Shown in pieces: positions 479 through 20,936 of a stretch of 21,197 nucleotides of DNA. Made by a program: the position numbers and the translations under genes. Origin of the DNA: a virus; IMG/VR virus record IMGVR_UViG_3300042453_000565, positions 1-21,197 of that record, one strand, 5' to 3'. Under the pieces are notes generated by a model, which saw only the letters and a program-made list of their open reading frames with translations, was not told the origin of the DNA and made no database searches. Position 1 is the first letter of the stretch. Each line of letters begins with the position of its first letter.

Positions 479-3400
479 CCTCCAAGAAACGCCGCGCCAG
501 TATCACCTGCTGGTCATCGAGGCGCTCTAGCAGCTGATCTTTCTTTTCCTGTGACAAGTTAGTCATCTCGATGACGCGTCTGCGCATGGTCGATAACTCA
601 CCTAGCTTCTGCTGCACCGCGCCCGATAACGATGCTGCCACCACCTTGTCACGGTACGTATCCAAGAACTCCAGCGCCTCTTGCTTGCGGCCTTGTTCGA
701 CCAGACGGTTGAACGTGCCCTTGGCTTGCTGAATCTCCAGCATGCGCTCGTAAGCAGCATCGAGTGTGCCCCGACCTTCTACCGGCTGGAATAGACCACC
801 AATGAACGGCGTCTCATGCAGCTTCTTGCTGGGGCGCTCGGCAGCAGTAGTCTCAGTATTTAGCAACGGGTTTGCCAACGAGATCAGCGCGATGCCCAGA
901 CCACCGGTGTAGCCACGGAACAAGTGATCCCAACCAATCGGCGTAATACCTGCGTCGCCTGTCAGACCGCCCAAGACTTTCGACAGCTCGGTTGTGGTGC
1001 TGCGGAAGCGTTCTGTTGGCTGGAGGTTAGCGATTTCACGCTGAGATTCAAGGTCGCCACCGAAGAACGACTTGCCCAGATACAGCTCGGTCACCGGCTT
1101 GACTGCTTGCGGCAGGCTAAATGGGTTGGACAGCATCATCAGTTTGCCCATGCCCTTGGTGATGTCCTGTGACCGCGCATCGTTTGCGGCCATATTGAAC
1201 ACGGCTTCCGGCAACGACTTGAACAGGTAGCCCAATTCAAACGGGATTGGCACCTTCAACGGCTGGCTCATGCCGGGGATGTAGACAAACCAGTTAGCCA
1301 GACGCTCTTCAGGCTTGGCGCGTTTGTACGCTTCGTCGTCCTGCATCATGGCAGCGTAGGCCAAGGTCGCAGCGCCGATCAGCAAACCACGGGCAATCAA
1401 CTTTTCCCGAATCTTCAACTGTTCGCTGTACGGCATCTTGTTGGTAAACGCCCGATACAGCACGTCCAGACCTTGCACCTGCGCGTTGAAGAACGGGATC
1501 AAGGTGTTCAGGTAGTACATTGAAGGCGACAAACCGCGTCGCCCAAAGTTCATGGACTCAAGTGTGCGCAGCAGTGCTTGCTGCTCTGACATACCTTTGG
1601 CTATCGAGTCCTTGTAGACAACCGCACGAGTCGCCGCGTCGCCCTGCAATGCAAAGGCGTCAGCTTTAGCCAGCAGCTTTTCCCACCCTGACTTACCGGC
1701 GCTGATGTCGCGCAAGAACTTTTTGAAGTCTTCTTGGTCGCCCGTAAACACGTTGGAAGAAATCGCGCCGGTTGACATCAGCTTTTTCTCAACTTCGCTG
1801 CGCCCGGCCACCATGCTGGAGAGTTCCTTGAACGCGTTCAAGATAGGCACACCGTCAGTGCCTGTTGTCATCCATGCGGTCAGCGGGTCACGAATAGACT
1901 GCCGGATAGCGTAGGCAGGGTTGCGGGTAACAAACTTGCGCAGTATGTCCGCAGGCACGCCCATCATCTTGATCGCCATCGGCAGCGTGGTCTTGATACC
2001 TTCCATGCCCTTAACGATCAGGTCAGCCGGGATGTCGTACAGGTCGCTGTCAATGATGGCGTAGTAGGGTTCGCCCTTGACCTTAAAGCGCACCGTGTCA
2101 CGGTTAGCAGGTCCTTCGCCTTTAGATAGCGTCTTGGCAAAACCAATCTTATGTAGCAGGAACGACGTGTCTTTGACGCGCTGGTTGCGCAAGCCCATAT
2201 CCACCAGCATGAAGGCGTTCTGCACGGCGCTAACAGACAGGGGCAGTATCTGGGTGTTGTCGCCCACCAGCTCTTGTAGCTGCGGCTCGTCCTTGATATT
2301 GCCAATACGGATCGGCGCTTCTTTGTCGGTGAACAACTCAACGTCGCCGCTACCCTTATTGACGCGGTAATACGGTACGTAGTCAATGGTCTTTAGCTTG
2401 TTTGCCAAGTCTTTGGTAATCGCGCCGGTCTGCACAAGGAAGTCCAGCAGTCCATTGTTAAATTCCTTGTATTCTGCCGACGCTGTTTCAAACGCGTCTT
2501 TCATCTGTGGGTTGGCGTTAAGCTGCGCCATAACTTCAGCGTACTCTTGCTTGGCCTTGCCGGGATTACCCACCCACAGCTTCTCCCAGCCAACCTGCTG
2601 GGCACGCTTGCCTGCCTGATACACCGTGAACATACGGTCTAGCTCAACGCCGTTTTTGATACCTGCGTTTTGCAGAATCTCAAACACCCGCATCAGGTTG
2701 GCACCGGCTTCGCTCTTGTAGATGTACTCGTTACCTTCTTTGGTTTCACGCGAGACGATGCGGCTAAGCGGTCCGTTGGTCAGTACTTGTTGTGCGTACT
2801 GGCTGCGGTTCTCACCAAAGCGTAGGAAATACTCGCCGTTGCTGGCTTCCAGCGCGTTGATCTTGCCAGCGTCCATACCCTTCTTAAATGCTTCAGAGAT
2901 CGCTGCAAACTTATCAACGAGCTGAACACGACCGCGCAAACCAAGGAAGTTAGCCTTCAGATTATCGATAGTGCTTGGCTCTTGGGCAACGATAGACGAC
3001 GCTGTTGTCTCTGGCTCACGGAACGACTTAAACGAGAAGATGCCCGGCTTGTCTTCCGTAACACCCACGTTCTTAAGCGCATAGCGCGGCTCTTCTACAA
3101 CCTCCACGTAGTTTGCATCAAATATCTCGGCTTCACGGGCAGCTTTTACAACGCGTTCAGGCGCTTCAACAGAACCAGTGTAAACATCCATGCGCTCCAT
3201 CAGTTCTGGAGAGGCTCCGATAGAAGCCATGTACTTTTTGGCCGCTTCTGCGCGAACTTTAAGCTCGTCAATCGGTACACTAAAGTGGATGTTCAAAAGC
3301 TCACGAACGTATGAGGTAAACCCCATTGTGCCGTGGTTTTTATAAACCCTAAGAAACTCGTCTTTGGTTTCTTTTGGGACGAGCTTGTCCAGTTGCGCAA

Positions 3401-6400
3401 GTGTGTTGCGCATGTAGTCAACCGTTTCTTGGTTAAGTTTGGTGCGCTTGGATTTTGGGTCTAATAACCCATCTTCTTCAAGCTGCTTAACAAGTTCTTT
3501 ATCGGTAGCAAACATTGACGTGTCGTACCCTGTTTGACCAAACGCCTCGTCTACCTGTGACGCAGAATAACCAAGTAGTTCGGGATCTTTTGCAAAGTCT
3601 TCTACAATTTCTCCATTTGGCGTTACGTCGTACGCATATGTGTCCGCCCATACATCAGGGTTTGAGTCCTGTACTGCGTTTACCACTGCGTTTCTGCGTG
3701 TGGAAGGATCTGTATGCTCGACAATAGCGTCAATGCGTTTTGCATCCGGTGCAACTAAGTGCAGTAGCTGGTTACGATCAGTAGCAACAACACGATGAAT
3801 AACGGCATCGCCCGAAACAATCAAACTGGTGTTTGTAGAATTAGGAACAATACTGTTAATCACAGCACCGTCTTTAACATCGACAATAGGCGGTGTCTCG
3901 CTGCTGTCATTATCAACGTAAATGTCGCCAATACGCGTGACTGCGGGTAACTGCAAAACGCTTTCGTTTCCATTAACGAAGAGTTCGTTAACACGCTTTA
4001 ACGAATTTAACGTCGCGTCGGTATCGCGTATCACAAAAGAAGCTAAAGACTTAACGTCTTGTATGTCGTGCACATACAAAAGCGACTTTGGGTTGTCAAT
4101 AGCCTCTCTTGTCATTTTTAACAAACGCTCGTAGCTTGCGCTTGAGTCGTCGTTAATAAAAAACGATTTGTTGCCAATCACCGCTCTGGTTCCGGGTGTG
4201 CTTGCAAGTTTGCCAAGAGCAGAAACCAACGCATCGTTGTTCATGCGTTTTTCTTCTGCAGAAACAAACGGGTGCGTAACAACGCCAATCAACGCTTGCT
4301 CGTTGTTAGCAAAACGATACATCGACATTTCGCTGCCAGTCAGCAACCGCAAGTTGGTATTAAACATCTCACCGTCGGCGTAAGCATTTGTCAAAGACTT
4401 TGCAATGATCTTGTCGCTAATTTTTGCAACAGCCGCAGACGGGCTTGGTGTTGTGTAACCCATGCCTTCGAGTCTTGGCATGAACATACGGGTTGGCGAA
4501 TACTGAAATTGCTCATTTGCATTTGACGCCTGCGCCATATTGTTAAAACGGTCAAGCAGATTTTTACCTAAGAAGAAACGGCTTGTCTGTTCTGGCGTAA
4601 GAATCCTATTGTTTTTAACTGCGTCTGCCATCGCAACACGCAGTTCGCTATCGTCAATATACTTCTGCCCGCCTTCAAACCCGCGCTTAGTCAAAAACTC
4701 GTTAGCAATCTTCTGTTGCGCAGGAGTCAGTGCTTGGTTGTGCGTGTTGCCGCGAACTTCTTGTATTTTTTCAGACCCGTCCATGCGAACAGCAACCTGC
4801 GGTACACCGTTCTCATAGTAAATATGGAAGTCGCCTCCACTAATATGCTCGGCTGCATTGCTTAAAGCTGAAGCAGTACACCACGTTGTCCCTGCAGCGC
4901 CAGCATTTAGTGCGACTGCAGCATCGTAGCTGTCCGACTGGTAAAAAGTCTTCCACCCCTGACGGCCCAGATTTTGTTTTTTATTACGGTTAGCAATACT
5001 CACCATACCGTCAAAGAAAGCGTCTTTAAGCGCCTTGCCCTTACGCAATTCTTCAACAATTGCGTTAGCTGAATCACGACCAACAACGGCTACTGGGTGC
5101 ATGTTGCTTGCATCCAGTGTTATCAATTTAAGATTACCGTCTTTACCAGAAATAATACCGAACTTCGACGCGGCTTTAGCCACCAACGCCATTTCCGCTT
5201 GGGTGTAGTCGGGATTATCCTTCAGGTAGTTTGCCAACTCTTGCAGCGCGGATGCGCGGTCAACTCCTACGTTGTCTGCGACATAGTACTTTCCTTCTTC
5301 ACCAAGCAAAGCGTATGCAAGAACATCAGGGCTGGCAGAATAATAGTCGTACGCACTGTCGGGATCAAATAACCGACCGTCTTCCATGCGCGTTAGCTGA
5401 TCCCAATTAATTTTTTGTTGGCTCGGGTACGTAATGTACTGCTCTGGATGTTGCGCCATGTCTGTCAGGTATTCACCTGCGATGCGGTCTACGTCTTCGT
5501 ATGTACGGTCTTTCTGTTTAATCTCTGTACCAAACTGCTCGGCAAATTGCTTCATCGAGTTACTGCCGGTGTGAAGCGCAGCAATATCTTTAGCCGAGTA
5601 CTGCCTGCTTACGGGCGTTTCTTTGATGGTCGGTCTGAGGCTGGTCGGCATCATCAACGCCTCAACCGCTTTCAGGCCGGTGCCCAACATAGACTGCGGC
5701 TGCTTAACACCCAGAATACGCAAGATGGCGCTGTAGATAGCGTCCAGCATATTAGAGATGCGCCACGGCTTAGTACGCAGTTGCTCGTGCAGGTTGCGGT
5801 TAGAGAACAGCTCAGCGGCAAATTCAGACAAGCTGCCCTTGGCGTTGGTACTGGTGATGCTCGGGTCGTTCTTAATACGAGCGTGGATCGCCTTCAGCTC
5901 ACGGAACGCAGCCTGCTGTTCTTTGGTCAGCAGATTAATGTCTTTTTCACCCAACTGGATTGTGCGCTCAACCGCCGCGTGTGTGGCTTCATGCAGCAGC
6001 ACTTCTTGCGACAACCCACCATTGCGTGACAGCTTGACCAGCTTACTAACAGCTTCACCCAGTACTTCTCTACCCTCTGGGTCGTACAGCTTGTTGTACA
6101 ACTTGACGTTGGTGGCGTCCAGTATAGGCAGCATCGCTTCGATGACCGCCTTGTAGATAGGCGTTGTTTCTGAAGCACTCATAATGGAGCGCAGTGCCCC
6201 ACGTATATCGTTGGCTTCTAGCAGCTTGATTTGCTCTGCTGTCAGGTCAGGACTTTCAACTTCCACACCACGGGCAAACTTGCCGGTTTCTTTAAGCCGT
6301 TTTGTAGCAGCAGCTTGGAAGGCCGACAGCATGGCGCTGGCAGACTTAGGTTCTGCTTTTGGCTTGACCGGTACTTCAGGCTTCTCGCCTGCCTGTGACG

Positions 6401-9935: not shown

Positions 9936-12341
9936 TTACGATTTTGGGTAGTATTGGTCAAAAATAGACTGTCCAGAAGGTGTCAGCTTCCCTGACGGCT
10001 CCATGTAACCCTGACCAAACAGCGCAGTAAACGGGTTTCTTAGCCGCGCTATTTCTTCTGCCGATTCTGCCCTTGGAGCGTACTGAGCTTTGGATAGGGC
10101 TTCAACAGCTTCCAAGTAAGACATACCGGGGTTAGCCTTCATGACTTCTGCAATCTGCCGCTCTGCCACGTCCGGGCGACCGTGCATTTGTGTGAGCTTC
10201 TTGTAGTAGCCGCCCATAGTATCTTGATAGGCTATCTCTTTTGCCAGTTTCTCACGCTCTTTACGCGCTTGCAATGTTGCAATACCAGAACGACCGATGT
10301 TCGAAAACAATTGCGAAACCTCACCCCCCGGCTGTCCGGACTGCGCCATCATCATGTTCAAACCCATCGTTAGATAGTCTTCGTTTGTCAAGCCGCCTGT
10401 CTTTGGCTTAACTTCTTCGGTGGGCGCTGCTGCTACTTCAGCAACTTTCTTGGCCTCTTCTACCTTATCAGGTGCAGGGAAGTTTTCTTCCCAAGGTTCG
10501 TAAGGACGTTTTTCTGGTGTTTCCGAAACAGCGCCGGGGGTGACCGCAGTACCAATAGCAATCGGCGCAAACACATTGCGGTTTGCTTCGGCTTGTCTAC
10601 GTGCGTCTGCAAACGTCTTATCACCACGATCAAGCGCGCGTTCTCTTTCGGCAATTACTGCCGCTTCTTCGGCTTTGCGTGCGGCTTTTGCCGCGTCTTC
10701 TTTGGCACGCATTACGTCTTTTGCTTGTTGTGCCCGTTTGCGTGCTAACACTGCTTCTATGCCTACTTGCTGGGCGGCGGGGTCAGGTGTAAACCCTTCT
10801 GTTTTAGGCATGCTTGCGCGTAGAGCCGCTGCTTTCTGTTTGCCGGTCATGAGCTTACCGTCAACTACAGAAGTAGCTAAAAGGTCGGCAGTCTCTAAGG
10901 CTTTAGCAGAACGCTCTTGTGCTTCAGCAAACCGCCGTTGCAAATCTGACGTACGACCTGCTGCGCCTTCAGATTTTGGTCCCTCAAGTCTTGGTGCTTT
11001 AGCAGTCTCAACGGCCTGCGCTGCTCTTGCTGCTTCGGCTTCTGCCAATTCTGCGGCAGTGACCGCCTTACCTGCTTTGGGTCTGGCGCTTGTGGTGCCA
11101 ACACCGGGAATGAATGGTGGAAGCCTAAAGTCCTCAACCGCTCGGGTTAATCCCGCCAAAGATTCTTTACCGGGTTCTGTAGGGGGCATAAACGTCATTG
11201 CCGCCGCACCTTCTTCTGCGGTTGTTGGTGTTCCAGCCAGTGTGCGGCCTGCGGCATATAGCGTACCTGTGAGCGGAGAAATTGCGCCTGTAAGCGCAGA
11301 CAACCCGGCTTCCGGTGCGCCTAATAGCTCGCGCCCACGTTGTGCAAGGTAAGACCGTTCTGGTCCTCTTCCGGCTTTTAACTGGCGTTCGTATTCAATA
11401 GCGTCAGGGTGTCCCGGCACATCTTTGAAGCGCAAGTCTGGCGTTGGTGCGGCTGTTGCCGCAGGCGCAGGTGCTGGAGCAGGCGCTTTTGGTAGTGTAG
11501 GTAGTGCTGTGACACCGCGTGCTGCCGGGGCACCCGGAGATGTAGCTGGCTTAAATTCCCCACGAGGCACCACATCGGCTGCTGCAGCAGCCGATATTGG
11601 GATGTAGTTGTTCAGCTTCTTAAGGTAATTAGCTGGTTCCTGCTTGTTTGTTGTACGGACGTTCTGATGCAGCTTCTCTGGCACCAGCTTGCCTTTGTTC
11701 TGTTTCAGGTGGTCGTTTAACACCCCTTCGCCTTGGTTGTAGGCGATAGCCACTTTGGCGGGGTCTTTGTACTTATCAAACAAGTACTTCATCAGCGACA
11801 TGGACGTGTCCATGTTCTTGTACGGGTCTTTGCGATCTTTTGGATCAAGGCCGAATGTTTTAGCCGTAGACTTAGTGAGCTGACCGATGCCTACAGGACC
11901 GGTCTTTGATTTGGCGGTGGATTTATACCCCGACTCAATTTGGAAAATAGCGTCCACAAACTTGGGATCAAGCCCCAACTGCCGCGCCTTACGCAGTGCA
12001 TACGCACGATACTCTTCGGTGTTTTCTGGTACACCGCCTTTTGCATACCCAGCGATGCCGCCATCGGCCATACCCTCAATATTCTGGGCTGGCAGTACAC
12101 CGATGCCTTGCTCTTCAGGCAACTGCATGGATGCGATGTTTTGGTCTGCAATAGTAGGTTGAGCGGCTTGTTGAGCAGCTTGCTGCCCAGCCGCGGCTTG
12201 GCGGGTTTGTTGACGGCGCTTAGCTTCTGCGGCGGCTAACGGCAAGATGTAGGGGTCATCCTTGTGCATGCGGGCATACTGCTGCAACTGCGCATCCGAC
12301 ATGGTCGCAAGTCGAGCGGTGATCTGCTGGACATTAAACAT
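9936..12341 (-). CDS. Lytic transglycosylase (SLT-type) internal or tail virion protein, 801 aa
   Basis: Cleaves the peptidoglycan glycan strand, probably to let the phage DNA tube through the cell wall during ejection. The transglycosylase domain spans about residues 108-245. It shows FVDAIFQIESG with the likely catalytic Glu136, then GPVGIGQL (148-155) and AIAYNQGEG (198-206), the classic order of the SLT fold. Before it is a Gln/Ala-rich N-terminus and the motif MADGGIAGYAKGG (91-103). After it comes a Pro/Ala linker (about 264-300). Residues 330-415 (LGAPEAGLSALTGAISPLTG, MTFMPPTEPGKESL) resemble a module usually seen in polyvalent proteins. Ala/Glu-rich helices fill the rest, and a conserved-looking end (LRNPFTALFGQGYMEPSG) closes it. 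The start has a good GAGAGGGG ribosome site inside the end of the preceding gene, two bases after which that gene stops. By position it parallels T7 gp16, although it is not clearly homologous beyond the enzyme domain. Confidence 0.8.
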   Translation of the reverse strand: MFNVQQITARLATMSDAQLQQYARMHKDDPYILPLAAAEAKRRQQTRQAAAGQQAAQQAAQPTIADQNIASMQLPEEQGIGVLPAQNIEGMADGGIAGYAKGGVPENTEEYRAYALRKARQLGLDPKFVDAIFQIESGYKSTAKSKTGPVGIGQLTKSTAKTFGLDPKDRKDPYKNMDTSMSLMKYLFDKYKDPAKVAIAYNQGEGVLNDHLKQNKGKLVPEKLHQNVRTTNKQEPANYLKKLNNYIPISAAAAADVVPRGEFKPATSPGAPAARGVTALPTLPKAPAPAPAPAATAAPTPDLRFKDVPGHPDAIEYERQLKAGRGPERSYLAQRGRELLGAPEAGLSALTGAISPLTGTLYAAGRTLAGTPTTAEEGAAAMTFMPPTEPGKESLAGLTRAVEDFRLPPFIPGVGTTSARPKAGKAVTAAELAEAEAARAAQAVETAKAPRLEGPKSEGAAGRTSDLQRRFAEAQERSAKALETADLLATSVVDGKLMTGKQKAAALRASMPKTEGFTPDPAAQQVGIEAVLARKRAQQAKDVMRAKEDAAKAARKAEEAAVIAERERALDRGDKTFADARRQAEANRNVFAPIAIGTAVTPGAVSETPEKRPYEPWEENFPAPDKVEEAKKVAEVAAAPTEEVKPKTGGLTNEDYLTMGLNMMMAQSGQPGGEVSQLFSNIGRSGIATLQARKEREKLAKEIAYQDTMGGYYKKLTQMHGRPDVAERQIAEVMKANPGMSYLEAVEALSKAQYAPRAESAEEIARLRNPFTALFGQGYMEPSGKLTPSGQSIFDQYYPKS

Positions 12342-12343
12342 GA

Positions 12344-13435
12344 TTAACCCCTCTCAATATCGTACATCAGCAAATCAGCCAAACCCGCAGGCATCTCTTG
12401 CATATCCTTAGTGCTACCGCCTTCAGCGCCCGTCTTAATCATGGGATTCTGCCCGCCAAACAGACCGTAGGCTGTCAGCCCTAAACCGCCTGCTTGAGAC
12501 AACAGCGACGGCGGGGCTTGATACATCTGCTGTGCAGACTGCGACAACGGTAAGCCGCGTAGCATGTCCGACATAAACGCCAACTGCTGATACGGATACT
12601 GCCGCTGGTTCTGGAAGTCTTGGTACTGCTGGGATAAGCGTTGCTGCTCCAGTGCGCGTTGCTGTTCGCCTGCCGATAGCTGCCCTTGCAGAATGTCTTT
12701 CTGTTGACCGAACTGCGTCTGACCTAGCTGGCCTAACTGCCCAGCCGCTTGTAACCCCGTGCCAGCACCGCGCAGACCAAGATCGGCACCGAACTGCTGC
12801 GCCTGACGTGCTTGCTCGAATGCCGTCTGCATCCCACGCCCGTAGATGTCGGACTGTAGTTGGCCTAAATTACGCTGGCGTTCCGCTTCGATTAGCCCTG
12901 ATCTTGACCCACCAAATGCACCCCGCTGCACAGCTTGCGCTTGATTCATCTGACCTTCTATAGCCGAGCGACGTGCGGCTTCACGTAGCTGTGGTTCAAG
13001 CGCGAGGTCTGTATAGGGTGACATGTACGCCTGCATGGAACCGGGAGATGTGGCCTGCTGTGCGTATTGAGCACCCGCGCCGAGACCTTGCAGTCCCGCT
13101 ATGCCGCCCATCTGTGTTGCCACGCCTAACTGCTGTGCGGGCTGAAGATTTGCCACACCCTGAAACGCCTGCTGCTGCATAGGCGTAAAACCAGCGAGAC
13201 GCTCTCCGCCGTAGGCTTGGTAAGGAGTATCGCTTAACGCCTCGCTTTTACCCAGCATGCGCTCGACATACGGCTTAGCGTAGTCTGGGATCGATGTTTG
13301 AGTAACGGTCTGGTTTGTAGGGGTTGATGGTGCGCTGCTGCCGCCCCCGTAGATGCGTCCACCGGGTTTTAAGCGTGTGGCACTTTCTCCAAACGGTTCG
13401 CCCAACGCCTCAAGTTGTCTGCGTGAGTAAGTCAT
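12344..13435 (-). CDS. Gln/Ala/Gly-rich putative internal virion protein (363 aa)
   Basis: I chose the ATG at 13435 (MTYSRRQLEALGEPFG) rather than an upstream ATG at 13477 because AGAGGT sits just in front of it and the upstream choice would run 34 bases into the preceding gene. The protein has a Gly/Ser/Pro-rich N-terminus and then helices with GFTPMQQQAFQGVANLQPAQ. A core carries YMSPYTDLALEPQLREAARR and QRGAFGGSRSGLIEAERQRN, followed by a very Gln-rich coiled-coil stretch. The block 'YMSPY ... GAFGGSR ... EaeRqRnl' recurs in environmental phage proteins without an assigned function. There is no signal peptide. Its place between a GNAT gene and the transglycosylase suggests an ejected core protein in the position of T7 gp14, but I cannot show homology. 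Confidence 0.75.
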   Translation of the reverse strand: MTYSRRQLEALGEPFGESATRLKPGGRIYGGGSSAPSTPTNQTVTQTSIPDYAKPYVERMLGKSEALSDTPYQAYGGERLAGFTPMQQQAFQGVANLQPAQQLGVATQMGGIAGLQGLGAGAQYAQQATSPGSMQAYMSPYTDLALEPQLREAARRSAIEGQMNQAQAVQRGAFGGSRSGLIEAERQRNLGQLQSDIYGRGMQTAFEQARQAQQFGADLGLRGAGTGLQAAGQLGQLGQTQFGQQKDILQGQLSAGEQQRALEQQRLSQQYQDFQNQRQYPYQQLAFMSDMLRGLPLSQSAQQMYQAPPSLLSQAGGLGLTAYGLFGGQNPMIKTGAEGGSTKDMQEMPAGLADLLMYDIERG

Positions 13436-13439
13436 AGTG

Positions 13440-13445
13440 ACCTCT
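13440..13445 (-). promoter_or_regulatory. Ribosome binding site deciding the start of the 363-aa protein
   Basis: Read on the minus strand this is AGAGGT, ending four bases before the ATG at 13435. It overlaps the TAG stop of the acetyltransferase gene. It supports the shorter start over the in-frame ATG at 13477. Confidence 0.7.
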
Positions 13446-13896
13446 ACAAAATCTTGGTGAACAGTTTGTCTGTCCACTTATAGCCCAAGTATTCAAACAA
13501 CTTGGAGTTGTCCATGTGAATCTTCGTGTGCATGATGACTCGGTTTACGCCGATGCCCTTCAACACTTCTTCTGCATACTTAAACAACCGAATACCCACA
13601 CGCCCTTTGCGAAAATCTGGTCGTATGTAGTAAATATCCTCAAATGCGGTCTTGCATGTCATGTAGTGCAAATGCGGTTGGATAATAAAAATGGCATAAC
13701 CAATCACTGTCTCATCAGCACGTACCGTAATACACCGCAGCATTCCTGCGTCTGCCAGCCTCTTGTACGCGTCATAGTCAGGGGCTAACGGAAAATCTTT
13801 GGTTACACACAACTCTTCGTAGTGCAGCGGGAAGAGTTCTTTAAGCTCCTCTACAAACGCAAACGGATCACAGTCAGCGTAAACAAGAGTCGTCAT
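13444..13896 (-). CDS. GNAT-family N-acetyltransferase (150 aa)
   Basis: Expected to transfer an acetyl group from acetyl-CoA to an amine; the substrate is unknown. It has the GNAT order: an N-terminal helix pair, the strands MLRCITVRADETVIGYAIFII, a beta-4 strand EDIYYIRPDF and an acetyl-CoA loop FRKGRVGIRLF (95-105). Then come a helix (KYAEEVLKGIG), the strand VNRVIMHTKI, and HMDNSKLFEYLGYKWTDKLF, where the Tyr in LGYKW is at the usual C-terminal place. In the loop the middle Gly of the R-x-x-G-x-G/A consensus appears to be Arg, although RKG..G still offers a loop. The length is typical. Its ATG overlaps the stop of the preceding gene (ATGA), so it is coupled to the putative ejection proteins. 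It might modify a virion protein or a host protein. Similar enzymes occur beside phage structural genes. Confidence 0.85.
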   Translation of the reverse strand: MTTLVYADCDPFAFVEELKELFPLHYEELCVTKDFPLAPDYDAYKRLADAGMLRCITVRADETVIGYAIFIIQPHLHYMTCKTAFEDIYYIRPDFRKGRVGIRLFKYAEEVLKGIGVNRVIMHTKIHMDNSKLFEYLGYKWTDKLFTKIL

Positions 13897-19012: not shown

Positions 19013-19264
19013 CTATTCCTTACTTTTGCCTGACGGCGTTGTATTGTTTGACGCATTGGTCGAGGGCTGCTTGGAGACGGGCGGCGTCGGCAGCGTACCC
19101 TGCAAGAAACTCTCCATCTCCTTTTGCCAATTCCGCACCGGAGGCTCCACTGCAAGCTCGGGCGGTACCGGAGGCGGTACCATTTTCGGCGGGGCGCTCC
19201 TGCCTGTTGCGCAAGCTGTTAGTAAGAGCGGTAGCACGAGCATTAATATCCCTGATCTGCGCAT
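19013..19264 (-). CDS. Rz1: o-spanin, outer-membrane lipoprotein (Rz1-like, 83 aa)
   Basis: The outer-membrane half of the spanin complex, which fuses inner and outer membranes in the last step of lysis. A short basic start (MRRS) precedes the hydrophobic stretch GILMLVLPLLLTAC. Its lipobox LTAC places the lipid-bearing Cys at 18, with Ala at +2, consistent with outer-membrane sorting. The mature part is Pro-rich (KMVPPPVPPELAVEPP) with a helix-forming NWQKEMESFLQ, as usual for Rz1. It lies in a different frame almost wholly inside the i-spanin gene, passing the i-spanin stop by seven bases. The start at 19264 is set by GGAGG seven bases upstream; a longer frame reaching 19444 lacks this support and would bury the signal peptide. 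The stop is two bases before the tail fibre start. Confidence 0.85.
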   Translation of the reverse strand: MRRSGILMLVLPLLLTACATGRSAPPKMVPPPVPPELAVEPPVRNWQKEMESFLQGTLPTPPVSKQPSTNASNNTTPSGKSKE

Positions 19265-19493
19265 CCTTTTCCCTCCGCAGCTTGTCCGCCGCCTGTTGCA
19301 TTTCCTGCTCACGTTGCCGGGCTTCTTCCTGCCCCTTGGCGTAAGCGGCGTACTGTTCTGCCTTCTCTTTATCCCACGCCTGCTGCACCTCTGCTTGGCC
19401 CGCAGAATTGCCTTTATAATACCCGCCCCCAGCTGCACCGGCAATCGCCAATACGAGCGTCAACAGCACCCACGGGTTGAAGAACGCGGTCAC
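19020..19493 (-). CDS. Rz: i-spanin, inner-membrane spanin (Rz-like, 157 aa)
   Basis: Anchored in the inner membrane with a periplasmic coiled coil that meets the o-spanin to bring the membranes together. An N-terminal anchor covers about residues 8-25 (WVLLTLVLAIAGAAGGGYY). A highly charged Gln/Glu/Lys helix follows (about 33-95). A short Gly/Ala-rich stretch with Cys114 lies between this and a final helix with Cys147. Size and order fit Rz. The start is GTG at 19493, overlapping the stop of the upstream exported-protein gene (GTGA), with AAGGTG upstream as a ribosome site. The o-spanin gene lies inside its 3' half. Two cysteines could give disulphide-linked dimers. Confidence 0.85.
   Translation of the reverse strand: MTAFFNPWVLLTLVLAIAGAAGGGYYKGNSAGQAEVQQAWDKEKAEQYAAYAKGQEEARQREQEMQQAADKLRREKDAQIRDINARATALTNSLRNRQERPAENGTASGTARACSGASGAELAKGDGEFLAGYAADAARLQAALDQCVKQYNAVRQK
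19161..19181 (-). repeat. Short direct repeat in the doubly coding spanin region
   Basis: GGCGGTACC occurs at 19161-19169 and again at 19173-19181, a 12-base period. It reads as the VPPPVPP-type repeat in the o-spanin frame and as GTASGTA in the i-spanin frame. One duplication would therefore have extended both overlapping proteins by four residues. Confidence 0.6.
19272..19276 (-). promoter_or_regulatory. Ribosome binding site of the embedded o-spanin
   Basis: On the minus strand this is GGAGG, seven bases before the ATG at 19264 and inside the i-spanin coding sequence. It is the strongest Shine-Dalgarno match in the lysis cassette and fixes the o-spanin start. Confidence 0.75.
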
Positions 19494-20145: not shown

Positions 20146-20329
20146 TGGGTTCCTCTTTCATCACTTCCGGTTTCAACAACTGATCCGGGCAGGTTCCTGT
20201 TACAGCACATTGTGGACGTTGGCATCGCGGTTTGTCCCAGTTTTCTGGGTTCTGGCAAAAGTACCGAACCCGCTCACACCCACTAAGCCAAACGACTGCC
20301 AGTATCAAGCATAGCCAACGCAATTTCAT
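20078..20329 (-). CDS. Cys-rich lipoprotein of unknown function in the lysis cassette (83 aa)
   Basis: I start at the ATG at 20329, which has AGGGAG seven bases upstream; an ATG at 20377 would place 16 residues before the signal peptide. MKLRWLCLILAVVWLSGC is a lipoprotein signal with lipobox LSGC (Cys18) and Glu at +2, so outer-membrane sorting is expected. The mature chain has six more cysteines (25, 36, 41, 47, 73 and 81) in a short Pro-rich sequence (QNPENWDKPRCQRPQC, TGTCPDQLLKPEV), suggesting a disulphide-held periplasmic knot. Similar lipoproteins appear in environmental phage lysis modules, without a known role that I can name. It is neither a second Rz1 by sequence nor obviously a toxin. 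It overlaps the endolysin by 47 bases and the holin candidate by 68 bases. Confidence 0.75.
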   Translation of the reverse strand: MKLRWLCLILAVVWLSGCERVRYFCQNPENWDKPRCQRPQCAVTGTCPDQLLKPEVMKEEPNEPAKTNKPVPCTDAGAARCSN

Positions 20330-20936
20330 AGTGATGCTCCCTATCTGCCAATCCAATATAGCCGCCGTTGATCGCACGGGTTAAGCCCTTGAAGTCGTTG
20401 CTATCGACAAACCGGTTCAACTTGTTCGTCTCCCAGAACCAGCACGCGCTCTGGGCTGCACCCTCGAAGGTCTCCAAGTATTCCGACGCTTGCTCCGGGG
20501 TCAGGTCAAGTGACGCGCCAAACCAAAAATAGTTGTCCTTGCCAGTCAACTGCAAAATTCCTCGGCCACGGAACGCGAACCCCTCTTGGCTGGCTTCATC
20601 CCCATTACCCATCCGGTTGGCGTACACACGGCTGGCGATCTTCTTCGGGTTGCGCTCGTACTGCTTGGCAAGGTCAAGGGTTGGGAAGTACTTCGGGAAG
20701 ACGCGCATCAAGCCGGAAGCTGAGTAGTTCAGGTTCTCGGTAACAAACACAAAGCCGCCTGACTCATGACCACACTGCGCTAGGAACGCCGCAACGCGCT
20801 TCGGGGTGTTGATCTGGTATTCATCTAGCAGAGACTTGCCGCCGAACTCCGTCTGCGGGCCAAACAGCGTGTCGTACCACTGCTGGGCGTACTTGGTGTG
20901 CGGGGCGAACTTCTTGAATTGTGCCAACGTAATCAT
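20283..20936 (-). CDS. Endolysin, GH19 chitinase-like muramidase (217 aa)
   Basis: Degrades peptidoglycan at the end of infection. The GH19 fold is clear. RVAAFLAQCGHESGGFVFVT holds the probable catalytic Glu58, with Glu67 in ENLNYS. RGRGILQLTGKDNYF (123-137) is the family's signature stretch, and TRAINGGYIGLADR (about 186-199) is the C-terminal active-site loop. There is no signal peptide or membrane anchor, so release should depend on a holin. The size is typical for a single-domain phage GH19 endolysin without an added wall-binding domain. Its ATG overlaps the stop of the upstream small membrane gene (ATGA), with AAAGGA upstream. Its end overlaps the lipoprotein gene by 47 bases. Confidence 0.9.
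   Translation of the reverse strand: MITLAQFKKFAPHTKYAQQWYDTLFGPQTEFGGKSLLDEYQINTPKRVAAFLAQCGHESGGFVFVTENLNYSASGLMRVFPKYFPTLDLAKQYERNPKKIASRVYANRMGNGDEASQEGFAFRGRGILQLTGKDNYFWFGASLDLTPEQASEYLETFEGAAQSACWFWETNKLNRFVDSNDFKGLTRAINGGYIGLADREHHYEIALAMLDTGSRLA
20337..20342 (-). promoter_or_regulatory. Ribosome binding site deciding the lipoprotein start
   Basis: On the minus strand this is AGGGAG, seven bases before the ATG at 20329. It lies inside the end of the endolysin gene. It supports the start that puts the signal peptide at the N-terminus. Confidence 0.65.

Follow-up and report, generated by a model that had tools for sequence, protein, structure and literature searches.

PcfJ-type proteins (PF14284), such as PcfJ from the Enterococcus plasmid pCF10 and its PcfJ-like counterparts in phages, occur widely on conjugative plasmids and in phages, and no function or activity is known for them. 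In phages and plasmids (L094-L173, L069, L071), a PcfK/AcrIIA9-like ORF mostly precedes the PcfJ genes, often overlapping them. A same-strand PcfK-like ORF lies within about 250 bases upstream in 85 of 105 PcfJ loci, and in pCF10 as well as in a second Enterococcus plasmid PcfJ overlaps a gene annotated as an AcrIIA9-family Cas9 inhibitor. Searches of NCBIfam returned nothing for PcfJ or PcfK. AcrIIA9 itself carries the Pfam PcfK domain (PMC6739104). Another class of relevance are the phage polyvalent proteins, which have been proposed to enter the host together with the DNA and to be cut by their own zincin domains (Iyer et al. 2017, PMC5512222).

Here we consider a domain, referred to as the WCT core, from an uncultivated virus (IMG/VR record IMGVR_UViG_3300042453_000565, positions 1 to 21,197; these 21,197 bases are the whole stretch analyzed and are called the window below). 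According to our leading reading, which we hold with about even confidence, the WCT core is an uncatalogued PcfJ-type, GNAT-like domain that forms an optional effector cassette in the polyvalent ejection protein of a short-tailed phage.

A giant protein encoded among ejection genes

The segment that had attracted attention in a sequence-only reading (4656-5018, minus strand) encodes residues 1640-1760 of a giant ORF (Table 1). This ORF specifies a large multidomain protein with zincin and LPD domains and is located among late virion genes. The same-strand genes upstream encode an SLT internal virion protein, a DNA ejection protein, a GNAT-family ORF, a virion structural protein and a tail collar fibre, and 31 of 35 relatives have the SLT protein gene immediately upstream of the giant one. 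The HExxH motif was detected in 40 of the 41 relatives with enough upstream sequence, where it lies 340-520 residues ahead of the WCT core. Owing to the zincin HExxH, LPD38 and the adjoining SLT virion and DNA ejection genes, the giant ORF is a predicted polyvalent ejection protein of a short-tailed phage, which, judged from this context, probably enters the bacterium together with the DNA. The initial description of the domain as part of an apparently injected protein is hence well supported by the ejection-protein neighbors and the zincin and LPD38 architecture.

Table 1. Features of the giant ORF and its neighboring genes in the window.
Feature	Position	Strand	Residues	Evidence or remarks
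Polyvalent ejection-type protein (predicted), 3164 aa	441..9935	-		ORF and LPD38
LPD38 domain (Pfam PF18857)	801..1337	-	2867-3045	E 1.8e-28
Optional cassette, about 840 residues	3081..5603	-	about 1445-2285	missing in close relatives L174, L219
WCT core domain (~110 residues)	4641..4973	-	1655-1765	AlphaFold2 model and conservation
Trp1685-Cys1686	4878..4883	-	1685-1686	invariant in 31 aligned sequences; in every confident match
N-module, helical, starts DIAALHTGSNSMKQFAEQFG	4974..5588	-	1450-1654	always accompanies WCT core
Zincin-like metallopeptidase motif region	5736..6038	-		HEATH at residues 1315-1319, then SEFAAELFSN downstream
Internal virion protein with SLT transglycosylase domain, gene directly upstream	9936..12341	-		PF01464, E 1.5e-20; phrog_342
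DNA ejection protein	12344..13477	-		phrog_4287, E 5e-19

Two further observations concern the surroundings of the giant gene. A true GNAT-family acetyltransferase gene lies within the ejection-protein cluster (13444-13896, minus strand; PF00583, E 2.2e-9). In addition, overlapping ORFs in two frames at 19013-19493 (minus strand) encode a DUF2514 protein and a lipobox-bearing ORF (LLLTACATG); they probably represent an Rz/Rz1-type spanin pair, next to the endolysin at 20283-20936.

A conserved core in an optional cassette

W1685 (codon 4883-4881), C1686 and T1687 are all found in the giant ORF, as are the motif residues G1710-V-P1712-Q-V-A1715-V-R1717, E1726-V-R1728-G1729-N1730 and Q1734. Two scans of viral contigs yielded 15 and 50 loci, which collapsed to 47 distinct core sequences, all residing inside ORFs of more than 1500 residues even where contigs cut the ORFs. 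W and C are unvarying among these 47 relatives. In an alignment of 31 sequences, the invariant columns comprise A, L, A, T, W, C, A, G-D-F, G, V-A, R, E, R-G, Q, L and A, with the strand motif reading VAxR and the loop motif ExRG. The dN/dS values over the core amount to 0.05-0.16 for seven pairs of relatives. Since the pattern recurs in about 47 distinct viral proteins, it is far beyond chance and is evidently a domain under selection. The strongly patterned core initially proposed (W-C-T, GxPxxAxR, EVRG and N) has thus been borne out. Its candidate catalytic residues hold as conserved positions, with W, C and polar residues being invariant, and the lack of conservation of W1685 and C1686 that would have spoken against the proposal was not observed. 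By contrast, the fourth letter of the originally suggested "WCTA" motif is not conserved: the window has A, but most relatives read WCTG.

Scans of the WCT domain against Pfam and PHROGs gave no match. When 15 WCT members were searched in Pfam up to an E-value of 10, neither a PcfJ (PF14284) nor a GNAT match was returned, and PF14284 likewise has no match in the window. As no WCT relatives were retrieved by tblastn from phage and plasmid records or by a scan of one bacterial genome collection, the family is known here solely from uncultivated viral contigs. The best sequence match in the PDB, a glutathione S-transferase (E 0.11), was judged to be due to chance, and no true PDB sequence relative was found. 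A papain- or transglutaminase-like thiol protease was also considered and set aside because the WCT alignment has no conserved histidine. Divergent WCT members with EPPRG occur in L065 (10001-10318; 4656-residue ORF) and L054 (10001-10324; 3851-residue ORF); an SLT ejection neighbor was not found beside either, and the zincin motif was also not found in L065.

Because the first relatives had been picked by the WCT core itself, relatives were re-collected using the C-terminal block (residues 2550-2900) as query. WCT is present in 12 of the 67 relatives having more than 1000 residues upstream, a count in which contigs of the same virus may be included more than once. The relative L174, with 93% identity over the C-terminal query, can be aligned with residues 1-1440 and 2278-3164 but has no counterpart of the part in between, and L219 shows a matching break at 1449/2289. 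In the window, the first junction runs from ...IKETPVSRQYS into AKDIAALHTGSNSMK and the second from ...ALK into NVGVTEDKPGIFSFKS, while the joined sequence of L174 across the cassette site is ...EVKETAKAMPKNIGVKEEKPGVFSFKS. Given that relatives with an up to 93% identical C-terminal block cleanly lack the cassette, residues of about 1445-2285 are, as the alignments indicate, movable, optional cargo and not scaffold. This cargo is composed of the helical N-module of about 200 residues, the WCT core and a variable tail. Since near relatives manage without it, assembly and emptying of the virion probably do not depend on the cassette. The location of WCT within a large ejection-type protein adjoining ejection genes could also be taken to indicate a structural role in the ejection apparatus or internal core. 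We consider this improbable, since the whole cassette can be missing from an otherwise nearly identical C-terminal scaffold and since its predicted fold is matched by PcfJ proteins of plasmids and phages, which are free-standing and, by position, not virion parts. A ready-made natural comparison is offered by these nearly identical phages, which differ in whether they carry the cassette.

The cassette tail contains what looks like a short β-repeat stretch (window about 3560-3970, minus strand; residues about 1990-2125) with units such as IGDIYVDN..., GAVINSIV..., GDAVIHRVV... and AKRIDAIV. Other relatives with the same scaffold (L186, L188, L192, L194, L196, L200 and L217) carry alternative long cargo without any Pfam match, possibly representing unknown effectors.

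The predicted fold and its resemblance to PcfJ and GNAT proteins

The AlphaFold2 model of the WCT core (m0e5c430377a9; 35 natural sequences; pLDDT 90.8, pTM 0.87) predicts a β-α-α-β-β-β-α order, consisting of β1 (1660-1664), α1 (1670-1679), the W1685-C1686 loop, α2 (1694-1700), β2 (1703-1708), β3 (1711-1720), β4 (1723-1729) and α3 (1738-1751). In a Foldseek search of a viral structure library, the top match was uncharacterized, while ranks 2, 3, 5 and 7 were occupied by "PcfJ-like" proteins (E 0.018-0.19), labels that are annotation names and not tests. The corresponding search against the PDB gave no match under E 0.4. A purely structural fold, which the sequence-only reading had named as evidence against an activity, is not apparent, as the predicted fold is no obvious structural one.

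For comparison, a PcfJ set was assembled starting from pCF10 PcfJ via bacterial genomes, plus 80 phage loci. A separate model of the PcfJ core (66 natural sequences; pLDDT 86.9) exhibits the same order of elements as WCT and places an invariant Cys34 in the α1-α2 loop, matching the loop of the WCT cysteine. On the profile level, hhalign aligned 47 WCT with 80 PcfJ sequences over 62 columns at a weak E-value of 0.038. Scores as high were obtained with 25 of 400 column shuffles, and the length of 62 columns was reached by none of the 400. The alignment register is the one predicted by the structures, with C on C, the glycine before strand 2 aligned and RGN on RG. A long WCT alignment compared with three PcfJ sequences yielded nothing. 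The original impression of a PcfJ-like fold is therefore upheld by structure, i.e. by four of the seven best viral-library matches and the independent PcfJ model, but not by a Pfam match; the suggested profile comparison agrees in register over the aligned columns and is weak in E-value and shuffle score. Overall, a PcfJ-type fold of the WCT core is supported by these predicted models.

Many phage proteins, all of unknown function, carry an NTKWCTT motif (at least loci L253-L332); they are assigned to phrog_17056 and phrog_28193 (unknown function). Comparison with these phage WCT proteins gave an hhalign E-value of 1.3e-4, which rose to 0.66 with the motif masked. The match was downgraded because it rests on the very motif that was used to fetch the proteins, and this second suggested comparison consequently holds up for the unmasked motif but not beyond it. 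The profile link between NTKWCTT proteins and PcfJ, in turn, survives motif masking (E 0.0038). One could argue that the resemblance of WCT to PcfJ and GNAT proteins is superficial and that the core is an unrelated thiol enzyme or binding fold, given that the WCT-PcfJ sequence comparison is not significant and that the NTKWCTT match vanishes upon masking. Yet, two independently modelled families agree in element order, cysteine position and first-ranked PDB fold, which renders this alternative improbable.

The PDB fold in question emerged from a structural second look, from which alone the GNAT signal for WCT derives. For WCT, GNAT-fold proteins appeared in nearly every row covering the core (model residues 207-320) with Z-scores of 4-6.6, and for PcfJ in all of the 50 matches listed, with Z-scores of up to 7.9 over about 98 of 107 residues; values below 8 can mean just a common arrangement and lie below the level that proves homology. 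In light of this caveat, WCT and PcfJ are read as having a GNAT-like half-fold and not as GNAT members, and both are placed there more tentatively than WCT is placed with PcfJ. In the WCT model, no strand of at least three residues was detected after α3 that could correspond to GNAT strand 5. Instead of the Q/R-x-x-G-x-G/A CoA loop, the sequence E-x-R-G-N-x-x-N-Q is found at the same place (β4 to α3). Acyl-CoA binding by WCT is doubtful, as neither a clear strand 5 nor the exact Q/RxxGxG/A motif is present. The predicted WCT site (W1685/C1686, R1717 and the E1726-x-R-G-N loop) is located where GNATs bind the CoA pyrophosphate.

Possible roles and comparison with described systems

The 110-residue WCT domain is probably a delivered effector with a putative activity and not a structural part. 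Following gene order and architecture, the giant protein would be packaged and then leave the virion together with the DNA, alongside the SLT lysozyme protein and the second ejection protein. The adjacent zincin peptidase may then free the cassette, either before or after entry, in analogy to the known proposal for polyvalent proteins. In the host cytoplasm, WCT could bind and probably modify a host molecule; the cleft used for this would be lined by the loop with W-C, by D-F and V-A-R on the strands and by the E-x-R-G-N loop. The foremost candidate for catalysis or for contact with the ligand is the invariant cysteine. An early takeover or anti-defense function, as proposed in the sequence-only reading, appears plausible by analogy, considering the optional nature of the cassette and the PcfK/AcrIIA9 partner of PcfJ elsewhere. 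A PcfK-like ORF was not found in the window or in the WCT loci, so that this hint about purpose transfers only loosely. Conceivably, the cassette could also serve late in infection rather than after injection.

The strongest rival explanation remains that WCT adopts the PcfJ/GNAT-like fold but merely binds a partner, be it DNA, RNA, a nucleotide or a host protein, without catalysis, with Cys and Trp being structural. There is precedent in T7 gp16-C, which binds DNA in the cytoplasm (PMC8954989), and such a role would be compatible with a fold that lacks the second half of GNAT and with a set of sequences that lacks both a conserved histidine and a complete classical catalytic triad. Strict conservation of several polar residues (D, R, E, R, Q) that surround a single loop and two strands, however, typifies an active or ligand site, and we regard a purely binding role as somewhat unlikely. 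With the reading of WCT as a PcfJ-type, GNAT-like effector, a broader scenario could be drawn, in which PcfJ, the WCT domains of ejected proteins and the NTKWCTT proteins all belong to a single superfamily of cysteine-bearing enzymes with a shortened GNAT-like fold, which mobile elements would deliver or express early to disarm or remodel the host; this is a speculative and rather unlikely extension.

Compared with phage polyvalent proteins (PMC5512222), the giant ORF shares a size of more than 1000 residues, a zincin-type motif, LPD38, a late virion-gene context and mosaic cargo, while the WCT cassette lies outside all LPD and enzyme models of Pfam. NTKWCTT proteins resemble WCT in having T-x-W-C-T at the same place after a strand and a helix, with another helix and a hydrophobic strand coming next, but are separate, smaller proteins, whereas WCT is part of a giant ORF. 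With GNAT acyltransferases, including the GNAT-fold domains of MprF/A-PGS and ATE1, WCT may share, according to its predicted model, the way in which the first half of the fold is ordered and packed, and it differs by lacking strand 5, the standard CoA-loop motif and a Pfam GNAT match. The likeness to PcfJ comprises the predicted core order, the cysteine in the α1-α2 loop, the G before strand 2 and a strand 4 that ends in Q/E-x-R-G and is followed by N and then a helix. In contrast, PcfJ has H-C-V after EGxxL where WCT has A-G-T-x-W-C-T, with C alone in common, and WCT has neither a Pfam match nor a PcfK partner gene and is embedded in a giant ejection protein. What is new here is that an uncatalogued and probably ejected cassette can be placed with PcfJ on structural grounds and that the two can be placed, more tentatively, with the GNAT-like half-fold. 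A concrete, testable functional hypothesis for the PcfJ-type group follows from its structural link to a phage cassette that is optional and probably injected, taken together with the GNAT-like fold and the one invariant cysteine.
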